This document shows positions 1 through 12,539 of a stretch of 12,608 nucleotides of DNA, piece after piece. The notes under the pieces were generated by a model. It had not been told where the DNA came from. It ran no database searches and saw nothing but the letters and a program-made list of their open reading frames with translations. The stretch lies in assembly GCF_003184185.1 (NCBI RefSeq), contig NZ_QHJG01000058.1, positions 15,660-28,267 on the forward strand. The letters run 5' to 3'. The first letter of the stretch is position 1. Every line of letters starts with the position of its first letter. Made by a program: the position numbers and the translations under genes. The stretch is from Legionella qingyii. Its GTDB lineage: Bacteria > Pseudomonadota > Gammaproteobacteria > Legionellales > Legionellaceae.

Positions 1-264
1 GCTGAACTAGATTATCTCGGCCATAGTTGGGATTGCAGCAAGGGATATAAGCAAAGCGGAAATGGGTGTATCAAGGTCGTTATACCCCAAAATGCTGAAC
101 TAGATTATCTCGGTCATAGTTGGAGTTGCAGCAAGGGATATAAGCAAAACGGAAATGGGTGTATTAAGGTCGTTATACCCCAAAATGCTGAACTAGATTA
201 TCTCGGTCATAGCTGGAGTTGTAGCAGGGGATTTAGAAAGATTGGCGAATACTGTGAACCTATT
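1..264 (+). repeat. Tandem 93-bp coding repeats (2.8 copies)
   Basis: Copies lie at 1-93, 94-186 and 187-264 (shortened). Copies 1 and 2 differ at only 5 of 93 bases, three of which change no or one residue conservatively. The period is a multiple of three and the reading frame stays open, so the array is a protein repeat and not a CRISPR or a non-coding satellite. The near identity implies recent duplication or ongoing homogenisation, and the array probably continues to the left of the window. Confidence 0.9.
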
Positions 265-267
265 TGA
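1..267 (+). CDS. C-terminal fragment of a Cys-repeat protein (5' end outside window)
   Basis: Frame 1 is open from the window edge to a TGA at 265-267 and encodes the last 88 residues of a larger protein. The fragment consists of two full copies and one shortened copy of a 31-residue unit that begins AELDYLGHSW and continues with C-S-K-G-Y, a Gly/Asn-rich turn, a second Cys and KVVIPQN. Each unit has two cysteines 11 residues apart, plus conserved Trp, Gly and Tyr, which suggests small disulfide-bonded modules and therefore an exported protein; that is inference, since the N-terminus is not visible. The third copy diverges after its first Cys and ends CEPI. Similar repeat proteins occur in Legionella and other gammaproteobacteria as far as I recall, but I know no function. 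The next gene starts 24 nt downstream on the same strand. Confidence 0.8.
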   Translation, partial: AELDYLGHSWDCSKGYKQSGNGCIKVVIPQNAELDYLGHSWSCSKGYKQNGNGCIKVVIPQNAELDYLGHSWSCSRGFRKIGEYCEPI

Positions 268-291: not shown

Positions 292-1992
292 ATGAATTGC
301 TCGAGTAACATCCAACCTAAAATTATGAGCTCTAATAGACTAAGAAATTTAGAGAATTCAGAAATCCAAGAAAATCCTTTTTTCTTGCTTGGTGTGAACA
401 CTCGCGATAGTAGAAAACGAATTGTGGAATTAGCTGAAGAAAAATCGTTAGAACTTAATCATGAAGTATGTCAAAAGGCACGTTCCGACTTAACAAACCC
501 AAGAACTCGATTAAGCATTGAATTGGCCTGGTTGCCTGGTGTTTCTCCAAGAAAGGCAGAACAACTAACCAATCAATTAATTTTTGACCCAATGTCAATT
601 CGAAAGGAGACAGGTTTACCAGTTTTGGCTCATGCCAATCTTATGGCTGCTGCTTTTAATGCCATTGACGCTAAAGATAAAGCAGAAGATATTTCAGAGT
701 TCATACAGGAAATAGTATATCTTATTGATAGTATAAAAATTGATGACATCATTCGTGACATAAATGAGGATCGTTTGGTAGCTGGCTTTCCCGAGGTTCA
801 TGCACAGCAGCATATTGAAGCAGATCTAGCAGAACGAAATCAATATTTTAGAAGTGTCATTAAAGATGCCTTAAACCGACTCCCATCTTCAACTCTAATC
901 AAAGTAGTTGCATTAGTAGTAACTAACATAACACAAAATGGTGAGAAACATGCTCCAGTCTTGATTGATGAGTTGGTAGATAGTTATGAAATAGAATGTC
1001 TAGAGTTTCTCCAAAAAGAAGCAGACAATATCCAAGAACTTATTAAAATAGCAGACGAATCTGCATCTGCTGGCGAAAAAGTTGTTGAGCCAATTATCGA
1101 TAAACTAGAGACTGTGGTAAGAAATTGGGCTCAAGTTGCGAAACCTATTCAACTAAGTGCAATATCTCGTGGGCTTGAGCATGAATTAAGTAATACGTTA
1201 GCTTACTCAATCAGAAATCTTGCAATCGATTTGTTTAATGAGCACGAGATGAGTAATCAAACAAAAAGAATTACAAGTCTTATTAATGAGCTATTTTATG
1301 ACCCAGAAATCCTGGCACGTGTAGAACAGGATGTTGATAAACTCCAAGAGATTATAGAAGAACAAAAAAATTCTGATATTCGTCAAACCGAATTTGCTAA
1401 TGAAATAACCTATCAAGCTGAAATCGGTGTGATATTTAAGGAGTTATTAAGTATTTCTCCTAATGGAGTTAAGTGGAAAGATAATAGTTATCCACTGGAG
1501 GCAATCACGCGAGTTCGTTGGGGAGGAGTCAGGCACTCTATAAATGGCATACCTACGGGCACCAGGTACACAATAGCTTTTGGTGATAATGATTCAGAAA
1601 CAGTTGTAGATCTAAGACGTAAAGAAATCTATTCTACTTTTATTGACAAACTATGGAATGCAGTCGGAATTCGTTTATGTTCGGATATTCTTGCAACATT
1701 AGAATTAGGTAAAGAGATAAAGCTAGGCGCTGCTGTAATCAGGGATGAAGGTATCTCATTTATCAGGTATAAACTTTGGGGTAAGAATGAATCCATCAGC
1801 TGTTTGTGGCACCAAGTCCATACTTGGAGCTATGATGGAAAATTCTATATTGGTATGAAGGAGGATAAAAAAACTTATATTGGATTATCTTATATAAATG
1901 ATCCAAATATTCACATACTTGAATTAGTACTCCAAGTGGCCTTTAAAAAGCCCGGAATAAGATTACTAAGTGATACATTCAAAGAGAATTAA
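292..1992 (+). CDS. DnaJ-like/PH-like domain protein of unknown function
   Basis: This is a 566-residue protein whose ATG is preceded by GTAGGAG with 9 nt of spacing. Residues 27-83 read like the degenerate J-type region found in some large hypothetical proteins: ENPFFLLGV, a helix rich in Glu/Lys, then KARSDLTNPRTRL and the phrase ELAWLPG. No HPD tripeptide is visible, so it should not stimulate Hsp70 as a normal J protein does. The middle (about 120-385) is acidic and predicted helical. The C-terminal 180 residues are beta-rich with repeated Trp and aromatic residues (VRWGGVRHS, LWGKNESISCLWHQV) and look like two PH-like or bacterial-PH-like domains; that assignment is tentative. No signal peptide or membrane segment is seen. 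It faces the helicase-nuclease gene tail to tail, 228 bp away. A shared function with that gene is inference. Confidence 0.85.
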   Translation: MNCSSNIQPKIMSSNRLRNLENSEIQENPFFLLGVNTRDSRKRIVELAEEKSLELNHEVCQKARSDLTNPRTRLSIELAWLPGVSPRKAEQLTNQLIFDPMSIRKETGLPVLAHANLMAAAFNAIDAKDKAEDISEFIQEIVYLIDSIKIDDIIRDINEDRLVAGFPEVHAQQHIEADLAERNQYFRSVIKDALNRLPSSTLIKVVALVVTNITQNGEKHAPVLIDELVDSYEIECLEFLQKEADNIQELIKIADESASAGEKVVEPIIDKLETVVRNWAQVAKPIQLSAISRGLEHELSNTLAYSIRNLAIDLFNEHEMSNQTKRITSLINELFYDPEILARVEQDVDKLQEIIEEQKNSDIRQTEFANEITYQAEIGVIFKELLSISPNGVKWKDNSYPLEAITRVRWGGVRHSINGIPTGTRYTIAFGDNDSETVVDLRRKEIYSTFIDKLWNAVGIRLCSDILATLELGKEIKLGAAVIRDEGISFIRYKLWGKNESISCLWHQVHTWSYDGKFYIGMKEDKKTYIGLSYINDPNIHILELVLQVAFKKPGIRLLSDTFKEN

Positions 1993-2220: not shown

Positions 2221-5200
2221 TTATATTTCTTCAGTTGTTTCATAAGAAAGCATTTGATCATTATGTGTATTTAGAATTCCTTTCAATATATTGTCTATTC
2301 TTACAATTTCAGCCTTCCAGTCCCTAGACCAATCTTGTGACCAAATACGCTCTATTTTCCATCCACGCGATTCCAACAACTCTTGTCTAATCTTATCACG
2401 GTCGCGAGCATAGGGTGTAGAATGAAATAATGCCCCATCACACTCTATACCTAAAATAAAATTAGTTTGAATGACAGGATGATGAATTCCTAAATCGATA
2501 TAAAAGCCACTTGATCCAATCTCAGCAGATACCTTATAGCCTAGCTCTTCTAATCGACGTTTAACATTTTTGCTGAATGAGCTTGATTTTCGAGTAGTAA
2601 TAGCACCACCAATACCAAAGGAATCTAATATAGCCTTTGCTTCAGGATAACTTTTATCATTGATTGCTTTTGCATATTTAAGATATCTTCCAAATAAAAC
2701 TAAATCAGGATTTTTAGTAAAATCTTTTTCTTCTGTTGGAATTAAATTTGGATCAAATGAGCAGAATACTTCTAGGCTCTGTTTCGCACGAGTGATTGCA
2801 ACATTAAGACGTCGTCCACCACCTTGCTTCGAAAGTGGACCAAAGTTCATATGTAGTTTCCTACCCTGTGAGGAGGGAGCATATCCGACAGAAATTAATA
2901 CAAGGTCTCTTTCATCTCCTTGAACATTTTCCAAGTTTTTCACAAAAAGAGGTATATCAGATTCGCCATTACTGAGTATTCTTGCTTTTTTTATATTATT
3001 TTTAAAACTTACATCAGAATGTATTCTACGTTCGATGGCATCTTCAATAGCTATCATTTGCGATTGTCCCATCGCAATAACACCCAGAGATTTTTCAGGA
3101 TTAATTTGGAATAACTGAGCTAATCTGTCGACTAAAGCTTCAGCCTCAACATTATTTCCTTCTTTTTGGTTAAAATAAGCATTATTTATTTGATGAAATT
3201 TAATAACTTCTCCTTCAGTTAAATAATATGGATTAGGGGCAGCAATTAATCTGCCTCCATAAAATGCTCTATTTGAAAATGCAATTAGAGATTCAGAGCG
3301 GCTTCTATAGTGCCATTCTAATACTTCAGAAGGATAAATTTGAGAGGCTAGATCTAATATACTTTGTGATAAATCTGATTCATTTTCATCGTCATCATCG
3401 TCAATAAATTCAACTGCTGAAAAGAAATTTGTAGGGGGCATTTGTTTTGGATCACCTACAACAACCATAGAATTTGCTCTATAGATCGATGGAATAGCAT
3501 CTTCAACCCTTACCTGAGATGCTTCGTCAAATATAATAATATCAAATAGTCCCATTTCCATTGGAAGTATTTGACTAATGCTTAATGGACTCATCAACCA
3601 ACAAGGTTTAAGTTTTAACATAGTAGAAAGTGCCCCTCGCTCCATAATTTCACGAGGCGAAAGTACCTTACGTTGTTTGTTAGCTTCTTTCTTAAGTAAA
3701 CTTAATCCTTCGAACTCTCCAACACCATTACCCCATCTTTTTGAAAAAGCATTATTTACAAATTCACGTGCAGAAATTCGGTGCTCTGATTCGATTTTTT
3801 TAAAAGATTCAATTTTAGTAAGAAAATTATTTCGATCGAAATTTCGTAGTTCAGGATATTGTGTAATAACTTCGTCTATCCACCATTTAATCACTAAAGA
3901 AATAAGGTATTGGTCCCAGGAGTCATCAATAGGAATGAGATTCTTAATCATTAGTTCTTTTGATAAATCACAATTAAAAGATGATTTAATGTTGTTTAAA
4001 CATAAATCAATCTTATCTAAGATTTCCAAATCGCTCATTTTTTCAACAAGAAAATCATAGTTATATTTTTCATTATCAGTATCTGAGACTATAGGTTTTT
4101 CGAAATACTGATTTAGTTCATTTTTTAGCTTATCTAGTTTCTCAATTTGTTCTTCTAAATTGATTTTTGCTTTATATAAATCAGGAAATATTTGTTTAAT
4201 TTTTGTCGCCGACTGACTGTTATAACTAGTTAATTCAGGATTAGAGAATAGTCCTAATTTCCTCATAATATCTCCAATACTAGATATGGCCTTAAGTATT
4301 GGATTAATTGTATTGAAGGCTTGAACAATTTTTTCTGGATCTGACTCATTAATCTCTAATGGAAGTAACTTATTTTGAGTGATGGATTTGAATGATTTTA
4401 TGGCTTCTTTTACCAGCCGATATGATTTAAAAGACTTATTTGTTCCATCCCAATTTGCTAGAAATTGACGCCTATAATTCCTCATTTTCCAAAAATTTGG
4501 GGTTAACCAATGAAATATACTACGCGAAATAGAGTAGTACATTTCAAGTTGCCTAATTATTTCGTCATTAGCATTTTTGTTTATTAAGTCAAAATGAGAC
4601 TTCTCACTTTCAATTACTTGTATTATTTCCTGGATTTCCTTTTGATATATCATTAAGCCAGATAAATCAGAGTAAAACAAAGCAGCAAACTCTAACCATT
4701 CAGAAGGTAGAGATAATTGAGTTAGCTCCTTTAATATATTGGAAGCGGGGATAGCTTCAATATTATTCACTCCGATATCTTTGATTTGTATTTTAATTGA
4801 GGATATTGATTGTTCAGTAAGTTTAATTTTTTCGACCATATCTAACATTACTTGCATAAAGCTATTAGTTAAAATAGTATTATCCTTCCTATGAAGCCAA
4901 GGATGAGTAGGAAGATCTTTCACTTTTGCTACATGCACTTGCAGTTCCCTTAATTTTCCACATATGTGCTTTAAGTCATCAAATGAATATTTTGCAAATA
5001 AATTAGCGAATTGAATATTCATCTTAATATTCTTTTGCTCGGAATGTAGGGTAAGTAAATCAGAAATATATAAGCCACTTGGATTGTGGACTGTTTCTAG
5101 TATTCGGTAATAAGTATTGATTTCTAACTTTAGGTTATCTAGTTCATTTGTTAACAATTCCCACTGTTTTTCAGCTTGGGGATCATGGCTTGCTTCTGCT

Positions 5201-6498
5201 AATTCTAAAAATGAGTTATATAAGCTTTGTTTATTCAAATCACTACTGTGAATAAGAACTGATTGTGATACAAGGTTAGCTTGTTTTAATCGAGCATATA
5301 CAACATCAAGTGCTGCTCTTTTTTCTGATACAAATAGTACTTTTTTACCTTTTGATAAAGTTTCTGCAATAAGATTTGTAATTGTTTGACTTTTCCCAGT
5401 ACCCGGTGGTCCCTGTATCACGACTACCTTGCTCTTTGTCGTTTGATCAATAGCTCTATGTTGAGATGAGTCAATATTTACAACAAAAAAATTATCTCGT
5501 TCTTTATAATCATCAAGACCTTTTATTCGCTCGTATATTTCACCTTTATTAGTAGGAATAGGTTTTCCGAGAAATAACTCTGATAAAATGGGGTGCATTT
5601 CAGAGTTTTCAAAAATAGAATCATAATCTCGAAGAAGTACTGTGCGACTTGCATTAAGATGGTCTATTAGGACAATATCAATTAGATAAAACTGATTTTC
5701 ATTGACTTTACTATATAGCTCATACTCTTTTTTCGTGAGAGCCTCCGCTAGGTTAACTGGAATTCTATCAACAATTTCTCCTTCCTCATTTTTTACAATT
5801 TTAAAACGAGGAGGAATTTTGGGGAGGGAATCAGTAAAGGATTCATCATGAATAACTGATTTACCAGATTTTTCTAAATAGTTCTTAAACTCTTGTAAAG
5901 CGTCGGATACTTGGTCAGATTCGAAATGTTCTGGAAGTTTTATGCCTAATTTTTGCCGAAGTGCAAGACGTAATGATGGATTCAAATGAACAGTAGTATC
6001 TTCTAGTTTCAAGCTCCATTTTTTTCCTTTATCCTTAACCACATCTACTGCTATTTTAAAAATTGGTGAGATTAGTAATTCATCTTGTTTGAAATTTACA
6101 TTATCCCTCCAACAAAGAAATGGCCCTAAAAGCCAAGCTCCAGAAATACCATATTCACGTTGAAACTTATCATCAGCAAGCCTTATTTTATCAAGTCTCT
6201 TAATTAAATCTGTATTTTTAGTTTCTTCTAATAGAAGATGTTGAGTGAGATTAAAATAAGAATTATTCATCAACTCTTGGAATATTGTTGATGTTGAGCG
6301 CAGGGGTATAAATTTTTCTGAAATAATAGCGTTATAAGCATCTTCTACCTTAGGAGCTTTTGATAAGTTAATACAATGCCCACGACTTTCACGGTAATAA
6401 ATTTCTTTATTTCTGCGTGATAAGTTGGCTAAGAGGTCTCTATAACGTAAAATTTGTTTTTTAATAAAATCTAAAATTGACACAGCTTCATTTTCCAA
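2221..6498 (-). CDS. DUF4011-type superfamily 1 helicase with C-terminal MTES_1575/Vsr-like nuclease
   Basis: The protein has 1425 residues. An N-terminal DUF4011-like segment (about 15-60, LANLSRRN) precedes a superfamily 1 helicase split by a long insertion. Walker A is GPPGTGKS at 363-370 with a Gln (Q346) upstream; Walker B is DEAS at 991-994, motif III GDPKQMPP at 1015-1022, motif V VQGDERD at 1192-1198 and motif VI NVAITRAK at 1232-1239. Residues about 400-960 are helical and probably coiled-coil, and an acidic run of five Asp sits at 1033-1037. Residues 1308-1394 match the MTES_1575/Vsr-like nuclease pattern: D1335, E1352-C-D1354, H1359, ARDRDKIRQ and RIWSQDW. All visible catalytic positions look intact. 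Related fusions occur in phage-defence loci, so cytoplasmic DNA or RNA cleavage coupled to ATP hydrolysis is the likely role. The start is non-ATG: TTG at 6498, or GTG at 6483; a TAA two codons upstream blocks any earlier start. Confidence 0.92.
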   Translation of the reverse strand: MENEAVSILDFIKKQILRYRDLLANLSRRNKEIYYRESRGHCINLSKAPKVEDAYNAIISEKFIPLRSTSTIFQELMNNSYFNLTQHLLLEETKNTDLIKRLDKIRLADDKFQREYGISGAWLLGPFLCWRDNVNFKQDELLISPIFKIAVDVVKDKGKKWSLKLEDTTVHLNPSLRLALRQKLGIKLPEHFESDQVSDALQEFKNYLEKSGKSVIHDESFTDSLPKIPPRFKIVKNEEGEIVDRIPVNLAEALTKKEYELYSKVNENQFYLIDIVLIDHLNASRTVLLRDYDSIFENSEMHPILSELFLGKPIPTNKGEIYERIKGLDDYKERDNFFVVNIDSSQHRAIDQTTKSKVVVIQGPPGTGKSQTITNLIAETLSKGKKVLFVSEKRAALDVVYARLKQANLVSQSVLIHSSDLNKQSLYNSFLELAEASHDPQAEKQWELLTNELDNLKLEINTYYRILETVHNPSGLYISDLLTLHSEQKNIKMNIQFANLFAKYSFDDLKHICGKLRELQVHVAKVKDLPTHPWLHRKDNTILTNSFMQVMLDMVEKIKLTEQSISSIKIQIKDIGVNNIEAIPASNILKELTQLSLPSEWLEFAALFYSDLSGLMIYQKEIQEIIQVIESEKSHFDLINKNANDEIIRQLEMYYSISRSIFHWLTPNFWKMRNYRRQFLANWDGTNKSFKSYRLVKEAIKSFKSITQNKLLPLEINESDPEKIVQAFNTINPILKAISSIGDIMRKLGLFSNPELTSYNSQSATKIKQIFPDLYKAKINLEEQIEKLDKLKNELNQYFEKPIVSDTDNEKYNYDFLVEKMSDLEILDKIDLCLNNIKSSFNCDLSKELMIKNLIPIDDSWDQYLISLVIKWWIDEVITQYPELRNFDRNNFLTKIESFKKIESEHRISAREFVNNAFSKRWGNGVGEFEGLSLLKKEANKQRKVLSPREIMERGALSTMLKLKPCWLMSPLSISQILPMEMGLFDIIIFDEASQVRVEDAIPSIYRANSMVVVGDPKQMPPTNFFSAVEFIDDDDDENESDLSQSILDLASQIYPSEVLEWHYRSRSESLIAFSNRAFYGGRLIAAPNPYYLTEGEVIKFHQINNAYFNQKEGNNVEAEALVDRLAQLFQINPEKSLGVIAMGQSQMIAIEDAIERRIHSDVSFKNNIKKARILSNGESDIPLFVKNLENVQGDERDLVLISVGYAPSSQGRKLHMNFGPLSKQGGGRRLNVAITRAKQSLEVFCSFDPNLIPTEEKDFTKNPDLVLFGRYLKYAKAINDKSYPEAKAILDSFGIGGAITTRKSSSFSKNVKRRLEELGYKVSAEIGSSGFYIDLGIHHPVIQTNFILGIECDGALFHSTPYARDRDKIRQELLESRGWKIERIWSQDWSRDWKAEIVRIDNILKGILNTHNDQMLSYETTEEI

Positions 6499-6859: not shown

Positions 6860-7099
6860 CTATCCATTTATAAAAAAGAAAAACCAATCAACCAACCGTT
6901 TGAAATTCTCTCCATCTAGAAAATCGTTCCCTTTAACAACTTGGACAAGAACTGAGGATTCAACCCCCAGAAGTTCTGCAAAATATTTTAAATCCATAGA
7001 GGCATGATGCAAGAGCATTTTAATTAAATTTTTTTGCGATTCATTTTTTAAGATATATCTTGCTTCTTTTTGTGGCAAGTTAATTGATAAACACTCCAT
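6860..7099 (-). CDS. Small helix-turn-helix protein with aromatic C-terminus
   Basis: I place the start at the ATG at 7099, giving 79 residues, because GGAG lies 5 nt upstream; a longer in-frame version from a TTG at 7120 is less likely. Residues 36-57 (MDLKYFAELLGV, then ESSVLVQVVKG) fit an XRE-like helix-turn-helix: a helix, a Gly-Val turn and a second helix ending at Lys-Gly. This is followed by LDGENFKRLVDWF, as in many XRE folds. The protein ends in an unusual run, D-W-F-F-F-F-I-N-G. It resembles short hypothetical proteins that I associate with Legionella, but I cannot verify this. It has its own strong promoter and sits between the transporter and the helicase genes on the same strand. 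A DNA-binding regulator is the best guess; a target cannot be named. Confidence 0.7.
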   Translation of the reverse strand: MECLSINLPQKEARYILKNESQKNLIKMLLHHASMDLKYFAELLGVESSVLVQVVKGNDFLDGENFKRLVDWFFFFING

Positions 7100-7172
7100 G
7101 TCCGCTCCATATATAAACAAAATTGATTATTGCTTCTATGGATAAGAGTAAGCGGTTATGAATATTAAAAAA

Positions 7173-7200
7173 ATTAGAATATTTACCCCGAGATTGTCAA
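7173..7200 (-). promoter_or_regulatory. Strong sigma-70-type promoter for the small HTH gene
   Basis: On the minus strand a perfect TTGACA (7200-7195) is separated by 16 nt from TCTAAT (7178-7173), which matches 5 of 6 bases of the -10 consensus. Transcription would start near 7166 and give a leader of about 67 nt before the ATG at 7099. It is the best promoter match in the window and makes the small HTH gene a transcription unit separate from the transporter gene upstream. Confidence 0.55.
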
Positions 7201-7264
7201 AGGAAAAATGCATAAATGAGCCAAAAATAGTCAATGATAAGCAAATACTAAATAATAGCAAAAC

Positions 7265-8746
7265 TTAAACTTGAACAGTTGAATCATTTATAGCTTCTGT
7301 AGATTTTTCATCAATAAGATTTTTTATCTTTCCTGCAATAAGGTATAAGAAAATACCACCTACTAATGCCCATAGTCCCAATTGACAAAATACATGAAGG
7401 TAATCTGGGTTGGTGATTAGAGGATCTGTTGCTTGTGTTTGTACCATTGCATTAGAAAAGTATTGTGATAATGATGCAGAAACTCCTGAAACCATCATCC
7501 AGGTACCCATTAAAATACCTTGTAACTTAAGAGGTGCTATTCGGCCAATCATTGCATATCCTACAGGTCCTATTAATAATTCTGCAATGGCTTGAGCGAC
7601 TAGATGAAGTATGATCCAGGATATGCTGCTGAAACCTTGGTTGTTAGAAAATACTACCGCACAAGCCAAAGAAAAAAATGAAAAACTTAGAATTACAAAA
7701 GCGCTTGCAAATTGCATTGAGGTAGAAAAATTGTAACCCTTATCTTTGAGTTTATTGATAACAATCGCTACAACTGGTGCGCCTAAAATAATCACAATAG
7801 CGTTAAGATTTAAAATCCATTGGGTAGCAACTTCAAAATTAAAAATATGTTTATCGACATTATTCTTAATAAAAAGAGTGATGCCCATCGGGCCAGTATA
7901 ATAGATCATCCAAAATATAATTGATGTCACAGTTAAGATTAAATAGACCAGAATTTTTTGTTTGTCTGCTTGATTTTTTTGTTGATAACCTAAAACTAGA
8001 ATGACCAATAACATAACAATACTGGTAGTAATAACAAGGCTATTACTCAGGAAAGAAGAATGAAAACACAAAACTAACACTGGGATTAATGTAATAATCC
8101 CTATAAAGCTAATCATATTACTCGCGAACTTATTTCTACTGTTTTTAGAAGTCGAAGATAATTCATTGTCAGCAAGATTGTGCCAGCTAAAAATCATGAA
8201 TAGTAACGTTAAAATATTAGCAAATACACCAATATAGAAAAGCTGTTGGTAATCATTTGAGTAATCATAAAATCCACTACTGATATATCCGGCAAAAAAT
8301 CCTACATTCATTGCAGCATAACTTAAAAAGAACGCTTTATCCCTACGACTATCATCTGGCTGAAAGCGTTGAGATAAAATGGTGTTATAGCATGTTGTAT
8401 TGAGACCGCAACCTATCAGAAACAAGCCTAATCCTACATAGAGTAATGAGACTTGAGATATTGCCAACACTACAAGCCCTGCCGTTTGAATTAGGGTTGT
8501 AATAAAAAATAAATTGCGATTGCTGATATAGCGACCTCCCATCAATCCACCAAACAAATGTAAAACATAGTTAAAGGCTAAAAATAAGCCCACAACGCTG
8601 TTAGAGACTGTTGGAGATAACCCAAGTTGTTTGCTTATGTAAAGTGAGAGGGAAGAATAAAGTATTGCAAACGAAAATGTTGAACAAGCCTGAATAAAGT
8701 AAAGCGATGTAACTCCATTTGGCATTCTTTGTATTGAATTATGCAT
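7265..8746 (-). CDS. POT/PTR2-family (MFS) peptide-type transporter
   Basis: This 493-residue inner-membrane protein has roughly 12-14 hydrophobic segments. It fits the proton-dependent oligopeptide transporter family: GGLMGGRYISNR at 66-77 stands for the usual loop motif after helix 2, Y143-x3-N147-x-G149 matches FYxxxNxG, and the second half carries LIGPVGYAMIGRIAP followed by GILMGTWMM. The family motif ExxERFxYYG in helix 1 is not kept: the aligned residues are Q19-A-C-S22-T23-F-S-F, so the Glu and Arg linked to proton coupling are gone. The start ATG is preceded by GAAAG. It diverges from the 433-residue gene and may move the product or precursor of the neighbouring RiPP locus, or simply import peptides. 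Direction and substrate cannot be read from sequence. Confidence 0.88.
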   Translation of the reverse strand: MHNSIQRMPNGVTSLYFIQACSTFSFAILYSSLSLYISKQLGLSPTVSNSVVGLFLAFNYVLHLFGGLMGGRYISNRNLFFITTLIQTAGLVVLAISQVSLLYVGLGLFLIGCGLNTTCYNTILSQRFQPDDSRRDKAFFLSYAAMNVGFFAGYISSGFYDYSNDYQQLFYIGVFANILTLLFMIFSWHNLADNELSSTSKNSRNKFASNMISFIGIITLIPVLVLCFHSSFLSNSLVITTSIVMLLVILVLGYQQKNQADKQKILVYLILTVTSIIFWMIYYTGPMGITLFIKNNVDKHIFNFEVATQWILNLNAIVIILGAPVVAIVINKLKDKGYNFSTSMQFASAFVILSFSFFSLACAVVFSNNQGFSSISWIILHLVAQAIAELLIGPVGYAMIGRIAPLKLQGILMGTWMMVSGVSASLSQYFSNAMVQTQATDPLITNPDYLHVFCQLGLWALVGGIFLYLIAGKIKNLIDEKSTEAINDSTVQV

Positions 8747-8764
8747 TTTTTACTTTCACATCCA

Positions 8765-8792
8765 TTGAAAAAGGTGACTCTACCATTAAAAT
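8765..8792 (+). promoter_or_regulatory. Sigma-70-type promoter for the 433-residue gene
   Basis: TTGAAA (8765-8770) and TAAAAT (8787-8792) are separated by 16 nt, and each matches 5 of 6 consensus bases. The predicted start near 8799 gives a leader of about 79 nt that contains the inverted repeat at 8854-8866. It sits in the 131-bp region between the divergent transporter gene and this gene. Confidence 0.45.
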
Positions 8793-8853
8793 TGGCTAGT
8801 ATTAAGTCTTTTTTACAATTATCTAAATTTTAAAATAAGGATATTTTGTAATA

Positions 8854-8866
8854 CTGTATTTTACAG
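8854..8866 (+). promoter_or_regulatory. Perfect inverted repeat CTGTA-TTT-TACAG in leader
   Basis: Two 5-bp arms surround a 3-bp centre, directly before the ribosome binding site AGGTG (8865-8869) of the 433-residue gene; the last two bases of the repeat form part of that site. It could be a repressor operator or a small RNA hairpin that hides the ribosome binding site. It is short, so chance is possible. Confidence 0.3.
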
Positions 8867-8877
8867 GTGTTTAAGGT

Positions 8878-10179
8878 ATGAACCGAATTGAAAAAGTTTC
8901 ATGGAATGAAATCAAAAATAGAATTAATGCAGTAAATCCTTCTATATACCAAGTTTTAGACGAGCTTTTATCAAATACTCAAATCCCTTTTTTTCTGGCT
9001 CATTATCGTTTTGGTGAGCATTTTGGTATTAAAAATCTTGCATATCTTCCTGGTAAGTCGGGAAAACTGGAAAGAATAGATAGTCCCAACACAGATAATG
9101 AGTTGTTTCAACATTTAGGTTATGGAAAGAACAGCTTACCTTTAGGTATTATTCTGGATAAATATTGTGAATGGCACTATTTTGGGGAGGAAGATAGGAT
9201 TTTTCCTGATTGTGTACAAGGCCCAGGTGCTATTTTTAATATGCAAATTGTATTTGATGAAGATCAGACAGTTGATAACAATGTTTTATCGGTTTCATCG
9301 GGGGCTCTGTCTTCTTTTCTGTTACCTAATATAGGATGCCAAAGAAAACATGCTCGAGTACAAAAATATTTTAATGTTTCTCATCCTCCACCAAAAACAC
9401 CTTATGAACACTATCGTATCTTTAAAGAAGTCCTACAGGATGGATATACATCTACAAACTGGCATAGCCAGATTCTTTATTTTTCTGAACAGTTTATTGA
9501 GGAAGTAAAGAGGAATGATAAGTGGTTAAAGTTAAAGCTTCATTTTTCTGAAGCATTACGGAAAAAGCTAACTAAAAATACTTATGACTCCTCGTGTAAT
9601 GATCTATTTTTAAGTGCAAGGAAAGTAAATCGTTTTAGGCCCACTCCTTTTATCATGGATACAGCAAAATACATTTTTAATATCTGCATGGGATCAGGTA
9701 TTGGAGTAAAACCTGCTATTGATGAGCAGTATTTTCCTGTTAGTGATGTTCAAAGAATTTACAATACGTGTTATGGTCTTGAATATACACCTACGGTTAT
9801 GGTTCCTGCTTCTTTGGATGAGAAAAATGACAGTGTTTATTATCCATTGCAATGCCCATTTGCAAAAATTAATACCTTTAAAACTAATCAAAGTAATAGC
9901 ACGTTAACAGAGCTTGAAACTTTAAAGAATGTATTACTAGCATATCAAGAGGAGTTTACAGAAGAGAAGGGTGATGCATTTGGTAGCACTTTGTATAAAG
10001 TAAGTAAAGAAACTCAATTTACTTTTTATCATTATAAATCTGATAGTCAAAATTTGATTAAAAATCCAAATGAATTATTAGATGAGGATTCACGTTTTTT
10101 ATTTTCTTATTGTGATAATGCGACGATCTTCTCAAGTGATGCGAAACTATTTCGTGGGTGTGTCCGACTTTCAAGATAA
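8878..10179 (+). CDS. Protein of unknown function beside the borosin-like methyltransferase
   Basis: This 433-residue protein starts at an ATG with AGGTG 8 nt upstream. I do not recognise a named family. No signal peptide or membrane segment is seen, so it is probably cytoplasmic. Residues about 36-60 (FFLAHYRFGEHFG) and 87-122 (LPLGIILDKYCEWHYF, then DRIFPDCVQGPGAIFNM) have the rhythm of a jelly-roll or cyclic-nucleotide-binding-like beta domain, followed by a Ser-rich strand, FLLPNIGCQRKHARV and a PPPKTPYEHY segment. The C-terminal half is mixed, with scattered Cys and aromatic residues and no nucleotide-binding motif that I can find. I recall Legionella hypothetical proteins with a similar N-terminal pattern, but cannot verify this. 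Its last 9 bp overlap the end of the methyltransferase gene. It could be a second tailoring enzyme, a peptide-binding or immunity protein, or unrelated. Confidence 0.85.
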   Translation: MNRIEKVSWNEIKNRINAVNPSIYQVLDELLSNTQIPFFLAHYRFGEHFGIKNLAYLPGKSGKLERIDSPNTDNELFQHLGYGKNSLPLGIILDKYCEWHYFGEEDRIFPDCVQGPGAIFNMQIVFDEDQTVDNNVLSVSSGALSSFLLPNIGCQRKHARVQKYFNVSHPPPKTPYEHYRIFKEVLQDGYTSTNWHSQILYFSEQFIEEVKRNDKWLKLKLHFSEALRKKLTKNTYDSSCNDLFLSARKVNRFRPTPFIMDTAKYIFNICMGSGIGVKPAIDEQYFPVSDVQRIYNTCYGLEYTPTVMVPASLDEKNDSVYYPLQCPFAKINTFKTNQSNSTLTELETLKNVLLAYQEEFTEEKGDAFGSTLYKVSKETQFTFYHYKSDSQNLIKNPNELLDEDSRFLFSYCDNATIFSSDAKLFRGCVRLSR

Positions 10180-10947
10180 TTTATAATCTTGGAGATTGAT
10201 TTTTAGAAGTTTAAGATACTTTTCACTTAATTGTTTTTGATTTGCTGGCGTTATATACAAAGTTGTAGTCGAATTAATTTTTGAATCAACTAAATCCTTT
10301 AATTTAATTTTCTCAATTCTAGGTTGTTGCATAGGAACTTGTGCTGCTTCATATAGATAAGCGATATGATCATGGGGGTAGAACTTAGTTATGTATTCAG
10401 ATAAAACCTGCATCTTACTAGTTTGATTAATATTATGCATTCCAAGGTTTGCTATCTGCCATAAAATGACATGAGCATTTATGTCGACATCTCTTTCATA
10501 TAGTAATAGTTCGGTAGCATCAATAGTAAAACATCCTTTATTACCAGGATCTATTTCTAAATCACTAAATAGACAATCTAAAGTTGAAATTCCTGGGAGT
10601 ATGGTAGCATTTCCATTAGCTGCTTTTATTTTTTTTACTGCATTTAAAGCTGATTCAGCGAATATGGTTGGGTGACCATAAAATAGAACACAAAGTATTT
10701 TGCCTTTATTATATTCGCTAATAATGTAGTTTGTAATTTTACTATAAGCATCGATTCGTTTATCACTACTAAAATAGAGCTCCTCTAAATTCTCAGATTC
10801 TTTAGATTCGCGCTGAATCCAAGACTTGAGATTCTGCTCATTGACTAAATATAAAACTTTATCAGAATTTTTAATTATATATTTAGTTTCTTCAGTAAAG
10901 TGAGAGACTGATTTTATTCCAGATCCGCAAACTATTAGCTTTGACAT
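10171..10947 (-). CDS. SonM-like borosin peptide backbone alpha-N-methyltransferase (TP-methylase fold)
   Basis: The protein has 258 residues, about the size of the stand-alone split-borosin methyltransferase SonM of Shewanella. It has the tetrapyrrole-methylase fold: VCGSGI at 6-11, YGHP at 90-93, LPGIS at 117-121, IDPGNKG at 132-138 and LWQIANLGMH at 162-171. The last two, with YEAAQVPMQQPRIE (199-212), closely follow SonM as I remember it and are not typical of the cobalamin or siroheme methylases. Y58, R64, Y68 and Y90 reproduce the spacing of OphMA Y66, R72, Y76 and Y98, residues linked to amide N-methylation; those numbers are from memory. The expected reaction is SAM-dependent methylation of backbone amides in a separate precursor peptide. 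There is no fused C-terminal core: the protein ends DYKLS. The gene starts 3 nt after the small ORF upstream, so the two are probably translationally coupled. Confidence 0.85.
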   Translation of the reverse strand: MSKLIVCGSGIKSVSHFTEETKYIIKNSDKVLYLVNEQNLKSWIQRESKESENLEELYFSSDKRIDAYSKITNYIISEYNKGKILCVLFYGHPTIFAESALNAVKKIKAANGNATILPGISTLDCLFSDLEIDPGNKGCFTIDATELLLYERDVDINAHVILWQIANLGMHNINQTSKMQVLSEYITKFYPHDHIAYLYEAAQVPMQQPRIEKIKLKDLVDSKINSTTTLYITPANQKQLSEKYLKLLKINLQDYKLS

Positions 10948-10950
10948 TAA

Positions 10951-11094
10951 CTATAAAATTTCCACTATTTTATTTGAATGGGGTTGTTGCTCTGAACTAG
11001 TCATTTCCTGAACTGTATACAACAATTCCATATGTTCATTTGTATTTATAAATTCGCTGCCAACAGCATTTTCAATTTGGTTCAATAAATCCAT
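10951..11094 (-). CDS. Candidate borosin-type precursor peptide (47 residues)
   Basis: The ORF runs from an ATG at 11094 to a TAG at 10953-10951 and encodes 47 residues beginning MDLLNQIENAVGSEF and ending HSNKIVEIL. GGAG lies 6 nt before this ATG; an in-frame ATG at 11106 would add four residues (MEKK) but has a weaker ribosome binding site. The layout is that of a RiPP precursor: a short gene directly upstream of, and 3 nt from, its modifying enzyme. An N-terminal helical part (residues 1-32) would serve as leader, a polar linker (SSEQQPHSN) follows, and the C-terminal K-I-V-E-I-L is the only aliphatic stretch suited to N-methylation. It does not show the DPxxV..HGL..GD pattern of SonA-type borosin-binding domains as I recall it, and it is short for a split-borosin precursor. 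The coding call rests on position and ribosome binding site; the precursor role is inference. Confidence 0.65.
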   Translation of the reverse strand: MDLLNQIENAVGSEFINTNEHMELLYTVQEMTSSEQQPHSNKIVEIL

Positions 11095-11145
11095 TTTTTT
11101 CTCCATGAATCAACTTTCGGTTATTGTATAAACAAAAGGGTCAAA

Positions 11146-11173
11146 GGTATAGCTAATTAAAAAATTAATCCAA
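11146..11173 (-). promoter_or_regulatory. Candidate promoter for the precursor-methyltransferase operon
   Basis: On the minus strand TTGGAT (11173-11168) and TATACC (11151-11146) are 16 nt apart, each matching 4 of 6 consensus bases. The -10 ends 51 nt upstream of the ATG at 11094. The DNA here is very AT-rich, so chance matches are frequent, but the position suits a two-gene operon read leftward. Confidence 0.35.
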
Positions 11174-11259
11174 TTTACTAAAAATCATTACATTTATTTA
11201 TATTGATTGGAGGTGCTCGATATGATGTAATAACTGCACGAAACGAGCATTTGTGTGAT

Positions 11260-11610
11260 ATGGATATTAATATGAATCAAAATAACCTTCTATATAAAAA
11301 TATAAATAGTAACAACACCCTAAATATTATTGAAGCGGCTCTATTTTTAGGTGCGCATAAGGAAACAGTTCGTCGTATGGCCGTATCAGGTGATATTCCT
11401 GGTGTAAAGATTGGTAGGGGTTGGGTGTTTTTAGAGGAAGATCTTGTGGTGTACATACGATCTAAGTATGCTACCAGTGTTACATCGCAAGGCGCTGTCC
11501 ATAGGAGTAATAATAAATGGCGCTTTACAAAAGAAACTCAACTTGGTGGGTTAGTTTCACCCATCAAGGAAAAAGAATACAAAGAAGCACTGGGACTGCC
11601 GATAAAGTAA
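11260..11610 (+). CDS. MerR/excisionase-type helix-turn-helix protein
   Basis: From the ATG at 11260 the protein has 116 residues; an ATG at 11272 (112 residues) is equally possible and neither has a clear ribosome binding site. Residues about 21-70 form a HTH_17/AlpA-like winged helix: LNIIEAALFLGAHKETVRR is the helix-turn-helix, IPGVKIGRGWVFLEEDL the wing and following helix. Such proteins bind attachment or promoter DNA as excisionases or as regulators of integration. The last 31 residues are encoded in DNA that also codes for the start of the integrase in another frame. I recall similar HTH proteins with a comparable C-terminal tail (GGL.SP..EKEY..ALGLP) next to related integrases, which would mean this overlap is conserved; this is unverified. 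Co-expression with the integrase is expected. Confidence 0.8.
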   Translation: MDINMNQNNLLYKNINSNNTLNIIEAALFLGAHKETVRRMAVSGDIPGVKIGRGWVFLEEDLVVYIRSKYATSVTSQGAVHRSNNKWRFTKETQLGGLVSPIKEKEYKEALGLPIK

Positions 11611-12539
11611 GTGCACAAGAGTATCACGATAGGATCAAAGCGGAGTTATGGTCTGTCACTAAATTGGAAAATAAGCCAATTTATGGTTGGCGTGATGCCG
11701 TTTGTCGTTGGCTACGCGAAAATGGAAATAAGCGCAGCCTTGAAACAGATAAATTTCATTTACGATGGCTTGACCCTTATTTAAGTAATTATCAGCTTCA
11801 TGAGATTAGTCATGAACTGTTAGAGGAAATTGCACTTAAAAAGGAATTAGAGGGTGTTACTCTCACTACCGTTAATCGTGTAATGGAAATTGTAAGGGCA
11901 TTATTAACAAAGGCGTATAAAGAATGGGGATGGATTGAAAAAATTCCCGTTATTCGCATGCGTCAAATAGAAAATAGTAGAATTCGATGGCTTACAATTG
12001 ATGAAGCAAATCGATTGCTAAAAGAATTGCCACCACATCTTAAGGATATGGCAGCTTTTACTTTAGCAACTGGTTTGAGAGCATCAAATGTTACTGGGCT
12101 GGAATGGAAAGATGTTGACATGATTAGACGACATGCTTGGGTGCACCCTGATCAGGCAAAGACAAAAAAAGCTATTTCTGTTCCGCTCAATGACAATGCT
12201 ATTGAAGTTCTACAGTCCAGGTATGGTACTCATCCCAAGTTTGTTTTTTCCTACCAAGGCAAAAAAATAGGGAAGTGCACCAATCATGCCTGGTTAAAAG
12301 CTCTTAAACGAGCTGGTATTGAAAATTTCCGGTGGCATGACCTAAGGCATACATGGGCAAGTTGGCATGTGCAAAATGGGACGAGTTTGCAGGAGTTGCA
12401 ACAACTTGGTGGTTGGTCAAGTTTTGAGATGGTTTTGCGTTATGCACATCTTTCTGGCGATCTATTGAGAAATGCGGCTAACCGAATTAACTCGTTAGGT
12501 GTAACCAGAGAAGTTCATAATGTAGAGGGGTTTTTATAA
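11517..12539 (+). CDS. Tyrosine recombinase (phage-type integrase)
   Basis: This 340-residue integrase starts at an ATG with AGGAG 9 nt upstream, inside the preceding HTH gene. The N-terminal 45 residues (LYKRNSTWWVSF, HQGKRIQRSTGT) look like an arm-type DNA-binding domain, residues about 55-150 are the core-binding helical domain, and 155-325 are the catalytic domain. The catalytic set appears complete: R188 in TGLRASN, a Lys at 215-218 in the hairpin AKTKKAISVPL, H274 and R277 in WHDLRHTW, W300 in the GGW position, and the nucleophile Y309 in RYAHLS. It should therefore be active in site-specific integration and excision. Its place near the window edge, with an excisionase-like gene upstream, suggests it marks an end of a genomic island. 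The attachment site is not identified; no tRNA gene lies within the 69 bases that follow. Confidence 0.95.
   Translation: MALYKRNSTWWVSFTHQGKRIQRSTGTADKVSAQEYHDRIKAELWSVTKLENKPIYGWRDAVCRWLRENGNKRSLETDKFHLRWLDPYLSNYQLHEISHELLEEIALKKELEGVTLTTVNRVMEIVRALLTKAYKEWGWIEKIPVIRMRQIENSRIRWLTIDEANRLLKELPPHLKDMAAFTLATGLRASNVTGLEWKDVDMIRRHAWVHPDQAKTKKAISVPLNDNAIEVLQSRYGTHPKFVFSYQGKKIGKCTNHAWLKALKRAGIENFRWHDLRHTWASWHVQNGTSLQELQQLGGWSSFEMVLRYAHLSGDLLRNAANRINSLGVTREVHNVEGFL

Follow-up and report, generated by a model that had tools for sequence, protein, structure and literature searches.

A putative split-borosin cassette with a partner protein and a POT-like transporter recurs across Legionella

A five-gene cassette present in a 12,608-nt stretch of Legionella qingyii DNA (hereafter, the window; all coordinates are window positions) and across the genus Legionella is read here, with a probability of about 80%, as a split-borosin cassette that makes and exports an N-methylated peptide, that is, a ribosomally synthesized and post-translationally modified peptide (RiPP). 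The original prediction, made from the letters of the window alone, had proposed a possible split-borosin RiPP locus with a transporter and a partner; the enzyme family, the precursor motif, and the gene linkage described below all support this proposal at the sequence level. The conserved unit consists of genes for a precursor peptide, a methyltransferase (MT), a partner protein (PART), a POT-like transporter, and a small open reading frame (ORF) starting with MEC (the MEC ORF). Relative loci are given as L-numbers and genomes as G-numbers. The features of the cassette are as follows:

10951..11094, minus strand: predicted precursor peptide gene, 47 amino acids (aa); a longer, 51-aa reading starts at 11106
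10954..10989, minus strand: putative core region QQPHSNKIVEIL, precursor residues 36 to 47, with a QxxSNKIVxI-type motif
11095..11158, minus strand: region upstream of the precursor gene, likely promoter and ribosome-binding site, from its identity and homology to L150
10171..10947, minus strand: predicted borosin-type peptide alpha-N-methyltransferase (MT), 258 aa, from SonM/OphM-type matches and Pfam TP_methylase
8878..10179, plus strand: partner protein PART, 433 aa, linked to MT; N-terminal half a CRP-like beta-roll by model
7265..8746, minus strand: POT-family transporter, 493 aa, from Pfam PTR2 and alignment to DtpA/DtpB
6860..7099, minus strand: small conserved MEC ORF, 79 aa, from tblastn matches downstream of POT; fifth gene of the cassette

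Four of these ORFs (MT, the small upstream ORF, the 433-aa ORF, and the POT ORF) had been named before and were confirmed at their positions. The extent given for the locus, 7265..11106, proved too short: homology to the DNA of L150 (89%) covers 6861 to 11158, starting at the end of the MEC gene and ending just upstream of the precursor, and so adds the 79-aa ORF. MT starts 3 bases after the stop of the small ORF, in agreement with the coupling proposed for this pair, and the ends of the MT and PART ORFs overlap tail to tail by 9 bases.

The methyltransferase matches borosin enzymes

To place the 258-aa protein, it was compared with the PDB using phmmer. At E values up to 10, 26 sequences were found, and 25 of them are borosin enzymes of the SonM, OphM, dbOphM, and MroM types. 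The best match is SonM (E 1.6e-39), OphM-type matches range from 7.9e-39 to 2.3e-34, the latter also being the weakest value among the borosin rows, and the sole non-borosin row is a weak match to an unrelated protein (E 0.019). The Pfam match is TP_methylase (44.2 bits). In the HMMER alignment, the IDPGNKG, LWQIA, YEAA, and PRIE segments align with SonM, and Y58, R64, Y68, and Y90 stand opposite SonM Y58, R67, Y71, and the Y of LYGHP. Among 30 aligned MT sequences, the window one included, R64, Y68, and Y90 never vary, and conservation at Y58 is 90% or more. These tyrosines and the arginine are the residues with which SonM holds the core peptide. Search and alignment thus bear out the earlier assignment to SonM-type enzymes, which had been based on length, shared segments, and residue spacing against OphMA, and the protein is, as judged by sequence, a SonM/OphM-type borosin alpha-N-methyltransferase.

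The same fold family includes other enzymes, and MT might instead act on a small molecule or tetrapyrrole, with the small ORF encoding a regulator or antitoxin that has no connection with it. No family was matched by the small ORF, and the top NCBIfam model for MT is YabN, at 70.9 bits, a score far below the cut-off of 525 yet above those of two control enzymes, the borosin-type proteins of Rheinheimera and Wenzhouxiangella (33.9 and 36.9 bits). Since YabN is the top model for both controls as well, it is not discriminating. CobF and CbiE models match MT at E 0.003 to 0.006, far below their cut-offs. Among the 26 PDB matches there is no cobalamin, siroheme, or RsmI methylase and no tetrapyrrole enzyme of any kind; profile and sequence searches, too, found none closer than SonM/OphM, a likeness that had been named beforehand as the finding that would overturn the prediction. 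In addition, the substrate-binding residues of SonM are kept, and the C-terminal motif of the small ORF, often in tandem, is conserved together with MT. With borosin-type matches throughout save one weak row, and with the YabN controls, the tetrapyrrole-methylase reading was rejected, and we consider an unrelated small ORF beside a small-molecule enzyme very improbable.

The small upstream ORF carries a conserved core motif

By sequence, the small upstream ORF is the precursor peptide gene. Its start is probably the second ATG (11094), which gives 47 rather than 51 aa: GGAG precedes this ATG, and L150 shows the same 47-aa reading. The 47-aa product, MDLLNQIENAVGSEFINTNEHMELLYTVQEMTSSEQQPHSNKIVEIL, ends in QPHSNKIVEIL. 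The NKIV motif begins at residue 41 and the core region at about residue 36, leaving a leader of about 35 aa. Compared with L150, the closest other locus, 14 codons differ, 7 synonymously and 7 non-synonymously; dN (non-synonymous divergence) is 0.072 and dS (synonymous divergence) 0.49. The precursor is under purifying selection, with dN/dS of about 0.15 in this comparison. The 60 bases upstream of the precursor start are identical between the window and L150.

To follow the motif in relatives, we gathered the 32 distinct loci with an MT identity of 55% or more and searched the ORF directly before MT for N[KTIE][IV][VAEF] or for the NKVV and NKIA forms. Thirty of the 32 loci have a core-motif ORF in this position; in the other two, the fetched DNA ends too early to show it. 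Loss of the small ORF in homologous loci had been named as a refutation of the prediction, and no such loss was seen. The near-clade precursors align with an N-terminal M-LL--LE-AVG-EYL, a variable linker, and a QxxSNKIVxI-type core, the core motif being single in 13 and doubled in 17 of the 30 distinct precursors (degenerate second copies counted). Similar cores occur in more distant precursors: PDANKVF in L024, ADMSRVV in L026, L027, L030, and L031, TDTTKIA in L038, and DMTHV in L069 and, twice, in L051. The Wenzhouxiangella precursor (L042) has a weak Pfam match to LigA (E 0.027).

Genetic linkage of MT and PART in Legionella

The distribution of MT and PART was surveyed in 45 Legionella genomes, with linkage defined as a distance within 5 kb. 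PART was found in 35 genomes (G015 with a fragment only, G011 with the distant type only) and MT in 34 (G007 and G019 with fragments only). A genome carries up to four near-full-length MT copies, one of the four with an in-frame stop, and up to five PART copies. A close PART lies within 5 kb of 54 of the 63 MT hits, and MT lies within 5 kb of 53 of the 60 close PART hits; these counts leave out 3 MT and 7 PART fragment rows, one of the latter (G012) being what is left of a PART next to an MT that was scored as PART-less. Gene order compared in related genomes shows the same arrangement recurring across the genus, which is why we do not attribute it to chance. The window PART is 99% identical to an L. 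anisa protein and the window MT is 91% identical to a protein filed under L. pneumophila.

A phylogeny was built from 82 methyltransferases; one of the 81 loci, L043, yielded no MT row. In this tree, a branch supported at 100/100 separates 44 without PART from 38 others, and all 33 PART-bearing ones are among the 38. Of the five PART-less members of this group, L039 and L069 end near a contig end; L022, L027, and L029 do not. No plasmid DNA near-identical to the window was found. In the protein search, 20 plasmid records match MT and 8, all of them from Legionella, match PART. No MT relative was confirmed on viral contigs, and phages gave no PART match.

The transporter lacks the importer proton-coupling residues

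The POT ORF matches Pfam PTR2 (107.7 bits, E 8.3e-31) and aligns with DtpA (E 3e-46) and DtpB (E 3.2e-40). In POT importers, the ExxER motif of transmembrane helix 1 and a lysine in helix 4 (TM4) serve proton coupling. The alignment shows QACST in the window protein at the ELWER of DtpA/DtpB, and no TM4 lysine. All 57 POT relatives, those of the YcaO clusters described below included, have QxxST-like residues in place of ExxER and T or S in place of the TM4 lysine; the TM10 glutamate, shared with DtpA/DtpB, is kept in all 57 (several loci are counted under two ids, so that duplicates are included). Given this motif loss, ordinary peptide uptake is less likely for the POT-like protein than export or, at the least, another mode of coupling.

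The position of the transporter gene also bears on whether it is a chance neighbor that imports nutrient peptides, as might be supposed from its structurally solved POT relatives, which are named peptide permeases and symporters. PART has a POT-type gene as its neighbor in all 18 near-clade loci that offer enough room (a contig end truncates L005 and L011) and in 12 of 16 YcaO-type loci. Eleven more distant loci instead have a different ORF after MT and codirectional with it; where intact, it is about 400 aa long, and the one tested, in L024, is MFS_1 by Pfam. Together with the missing coupling residues, this makes a nutrient importer an improbable explanation. An MFS gene lies directly before the precursor in L001 and L154. 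The MEC ORF was found by tblastn downstream of POT in all 22 borosin-type loci (the window included) that have POT and at least 1.5 kb of room.

Five loci (L009, L011, L013, L014, and L016) have an acetyltransferase-like ORF between MT and PART, which is GNAT by Pfam in L009 and may add a further modification.

PART is a conserved protein with no recognized family

No Pfam or NCBIfam family was found for PART. In a structure model, its N-terminal half is a beta-roll resembling that of CRP/FNR and other cyclic nucleotide–binding domains, with a Foldseek match whose TM-score is only 0.26 on the model's length. The C-terminal half searched alone gave nothing significant, which does not demonstrate a new fold. 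The PART sequence has four weak rows in the PDB, the best at E 0.48. PART was also considered as a Cys-His-Asp peptidase (H385, D404, and C428); this was an idea only, and H385, kept in 15 of 16 distant members, is absent in L156.

PART could act in the cytosol as a receptor for the exported peptide or provide immunity to it, which would make the cassette a signaling or competition system. The beta-roll suits a product-binding sensor, but no DNA-binding or signaling domain was recognized in PART, and none of 38 PART members has a Pfam match for binding of cyclic nucleotides. PART is also better conserved than MT (80% versus 60% in L003, for example), unlike a fast-changing immunity protein, and it overlaps ATP-grasp genes in 11 of 16 YcaO-type loci. 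Since such an overlap resembles an arrangement common for biosynthetic genes, it favors PART as a biosynthetic partner acting in release or further tailoring, a role to which we give roughly even odds; a product-binding sensor or immunity protein seems to us rather unlikely, as does the signaling or competition system built on it.

PART occurs with other tailoring enzymes

The YcaO-type loci carry a distant PART that is 24 to 27% identical to that of the window. Sixteen of them were fetched, 14 of the genus's 19 distant hits plus two plasmid records (L148, L149, L156, L158 to L169, and L173). In all 16, on plasmids and other contigs alike, distant PART is clustered with ATP-grasp, ThiS-like, YcaO, and TfuA genes; ThiF is present in 14 and a homologous POT (41 to 45%) in 12. 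PART stands head to tail with the overlapping ATP-grasp gene in 11 loci and faces TfuA tail to tail in 5. These clusters share PART and, mostly, POT with the borosin cassette; their chemistry differs, and none of the 19 distant hits has a borosin MT within 5 kb. A figure of conjugative elements published in 2011 (PMC3218107) includes ycaO and tfuA among proteins whose function was unknown.

Close-type PART is likewise found apart from borosin MT. L151 and L153 keep POT and the MEC ORF, L152 has PART beside a 421-aa ORF, and L172 has an MFS-like piece; in L170 and L171, no partner was recognized. Another of these loci, L155, and likewise L154, has PART near genes for aspartate decarboxylase, a D-Ala-D-Ala-ligase-like (ATP-grasp) protein, Asp/Glu racemase, and an MFS protein (Pfam assignments for L154), which is possibly a beta-alanyl peptide pathway.

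In a class-level sample, PART was detected in 18 of 274 genomes, an L. anisa genome included, and 20 PART loci from 12 of the 18 were inspected. Borosin MT is present in two (both already known loci), YcaO in three, and two ATP-grasp genes with POT in one. A class I methyltransferase gene is convergent with PART in six (L185, L186, L188, L189, L193, and L197); four of the six proteins score above the Pfam cut-off and two score below it but are BLAST-related, and POT is present in L185, L189, and L197. Eight loci (L187, L190, L192, L194, L195, and L199 to L201) have no recognized biosynthetic partner among those of their neighbors that were scanned. The occurrence of PART beside class I methyltransferases that show no convincing precursor ORF upstream speaks against a pure leader peptidase.

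One reading of these neighborhoods, to which we give less than even odds, is that PART and a modified POT or MFS transporter form a chemistry-independent chassis in Legionella and related gammaproteobacteria. Different tailoring enzymes would plug into it (borosin MT with its precursor, YcaO/TfuA with a ThiS-like carrier, ATP-grasp ligases, or a class I methyltransferase), and PART would finish, carry, or sense a peptide-like product. All these pathways would then require PART, and PART would represent a protein of a new type.

Proposed mechanism and points against it

The mechanism that we infer for the split-borosin cassette, from methylation and its positions through release and the direction of export to the role of PART and the use of the product, would run as follows. 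MT would bind the N-terminal leader (MDLLxxIExAVGxEF) of the short precursor and transfer methyl groups from S-adenosylmethionine to backbone nitrogens of the core QPHSNKIVEIL, probably at I and V. The core would then be released and exported by the POT-like transporter that lacks the importer proton-coupling residues, with PART acting on the modified peptide or handing it over as a biosynthetic partner. For the MT step, the family evidence is strong; the PART and export steps would follow from linkage and motif loss.

Several observations weigh against this interpretation. No recognizable protease was seen among the cassette genes, and H385 of PART is missing in one distant member (L156). Nine of the 63 MT hits have no close PART within 5 kb. 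The core is not clear in every distant locus: the precursors of L001, L048, and L145 end differently, a convincing precursor was looked for at L025 and not found, and the distant precursor at L022:2639-2824 has three AIAQPN-type repeats with no PART nearby. No convincing precursor ORF was found beside the six class I methyltransferases. The window and L013 precursors have no Pfam family, and the leader of about 35 aa is too short for the 53-residue domain of SonA. The cores of tested enzymes are described in a passage of PMC11285071 as primarily hydrophobic, and the window core is fairly polar. Last, the DNA homology with L002 continues beyond the cassette, to 11598, and resumes at 12282-12454, in neighboring helix-turn-helix (HTH) and integrase genes.

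Comparison with known systems

The closest known system is SonM-SonA of Shewanella oneidensis (type IV), which likewise has a free-standing MT, about 260 aa long and identical in its active-site residues, and, as described in PMC8429565, a small, separate, adjacent precursor with a C-terminal core. SonA has a five-helix binding domain of 53 residues, whereas no such domain fits into the Legionella leader. The Legionella locus further differs from SonM-SonA in its SNKIV-type core, which is often doubled, in PART, in the POT-like or MFS transporter, and in the near-clade MEC ORF. In class 4 borosins, MT and core are separate and no binding domain was found in the cluster, according to a figure legend of PMC11395268. 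Judged by sequence, the cassette would count as a split borosin as PMC8429565 uses the term, with MT and precursor encoded separately, and would be closer to class 4 of PMC11395268. Fungal borosins of the OphMA type have a similar MT domain, as the E values of the OphM/MroM chains show, but their precursor is fused to the enzyme, while here it is separate.

Backbone N-methylated ribosomal peptides had been called rare in bacteria in the original prediction. This does not agree with PMC11285071, a passage of which reports type IV (split) borosins as widespread in bacteria. No Legionella borosin was found in the open-access full-text literature; the main surveys of borosin types lie outside that scope, and priority is uncertain.

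If the split-borosin interpretation is right, bacteria of a genus that lives in amoebae and is sometimes pathogenic encode, frequently more than once per genome, a peptide that is N-methylated on its backbone and whose core hardly varies. Such a peptide would be a concrete candidate to search for, its short leader would offer a minimal case for work on borosin substrate recognition, and PART would be a family-less protein common to several unrelated tailoring chemistries.

Neighboring genes

To its left, the cassette adjoins a helicase-nuclease gene in the window, whereas in L150 a type III restriction system takes this place; the defense genes next to the cassette thus vary. The window gene (2221-6498, minus strand) encodes a large protein with DUF4011/helicase and MTES_1575 nuclease parts that is close to anti-phage ProA and to the candidate system PDC-S37, and that scores below the NCBIfam cut-off for ProA. 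To the right of the cassette, an integrase is present in both the window and L150. In the window, the region 11203-12539 (plus strand) encodes an excisionase-like HTH protein (135 aa) and a tyrosine integrase (340 aa), and DNA related to this region is also found near the cassettes of L002, L010, and L133.

Two further ORFs lie at the left end of the window. A 566-aa ORF (292-1992, plus strand) has no Pfam or NCBIfam family above cut-off. Positions 1-267 (plus strand) encode the end of a protein with near-identical repeats of ~31 residues (AELDYLGHSWxCSKGYKQxGNGCIKVVIPQN).

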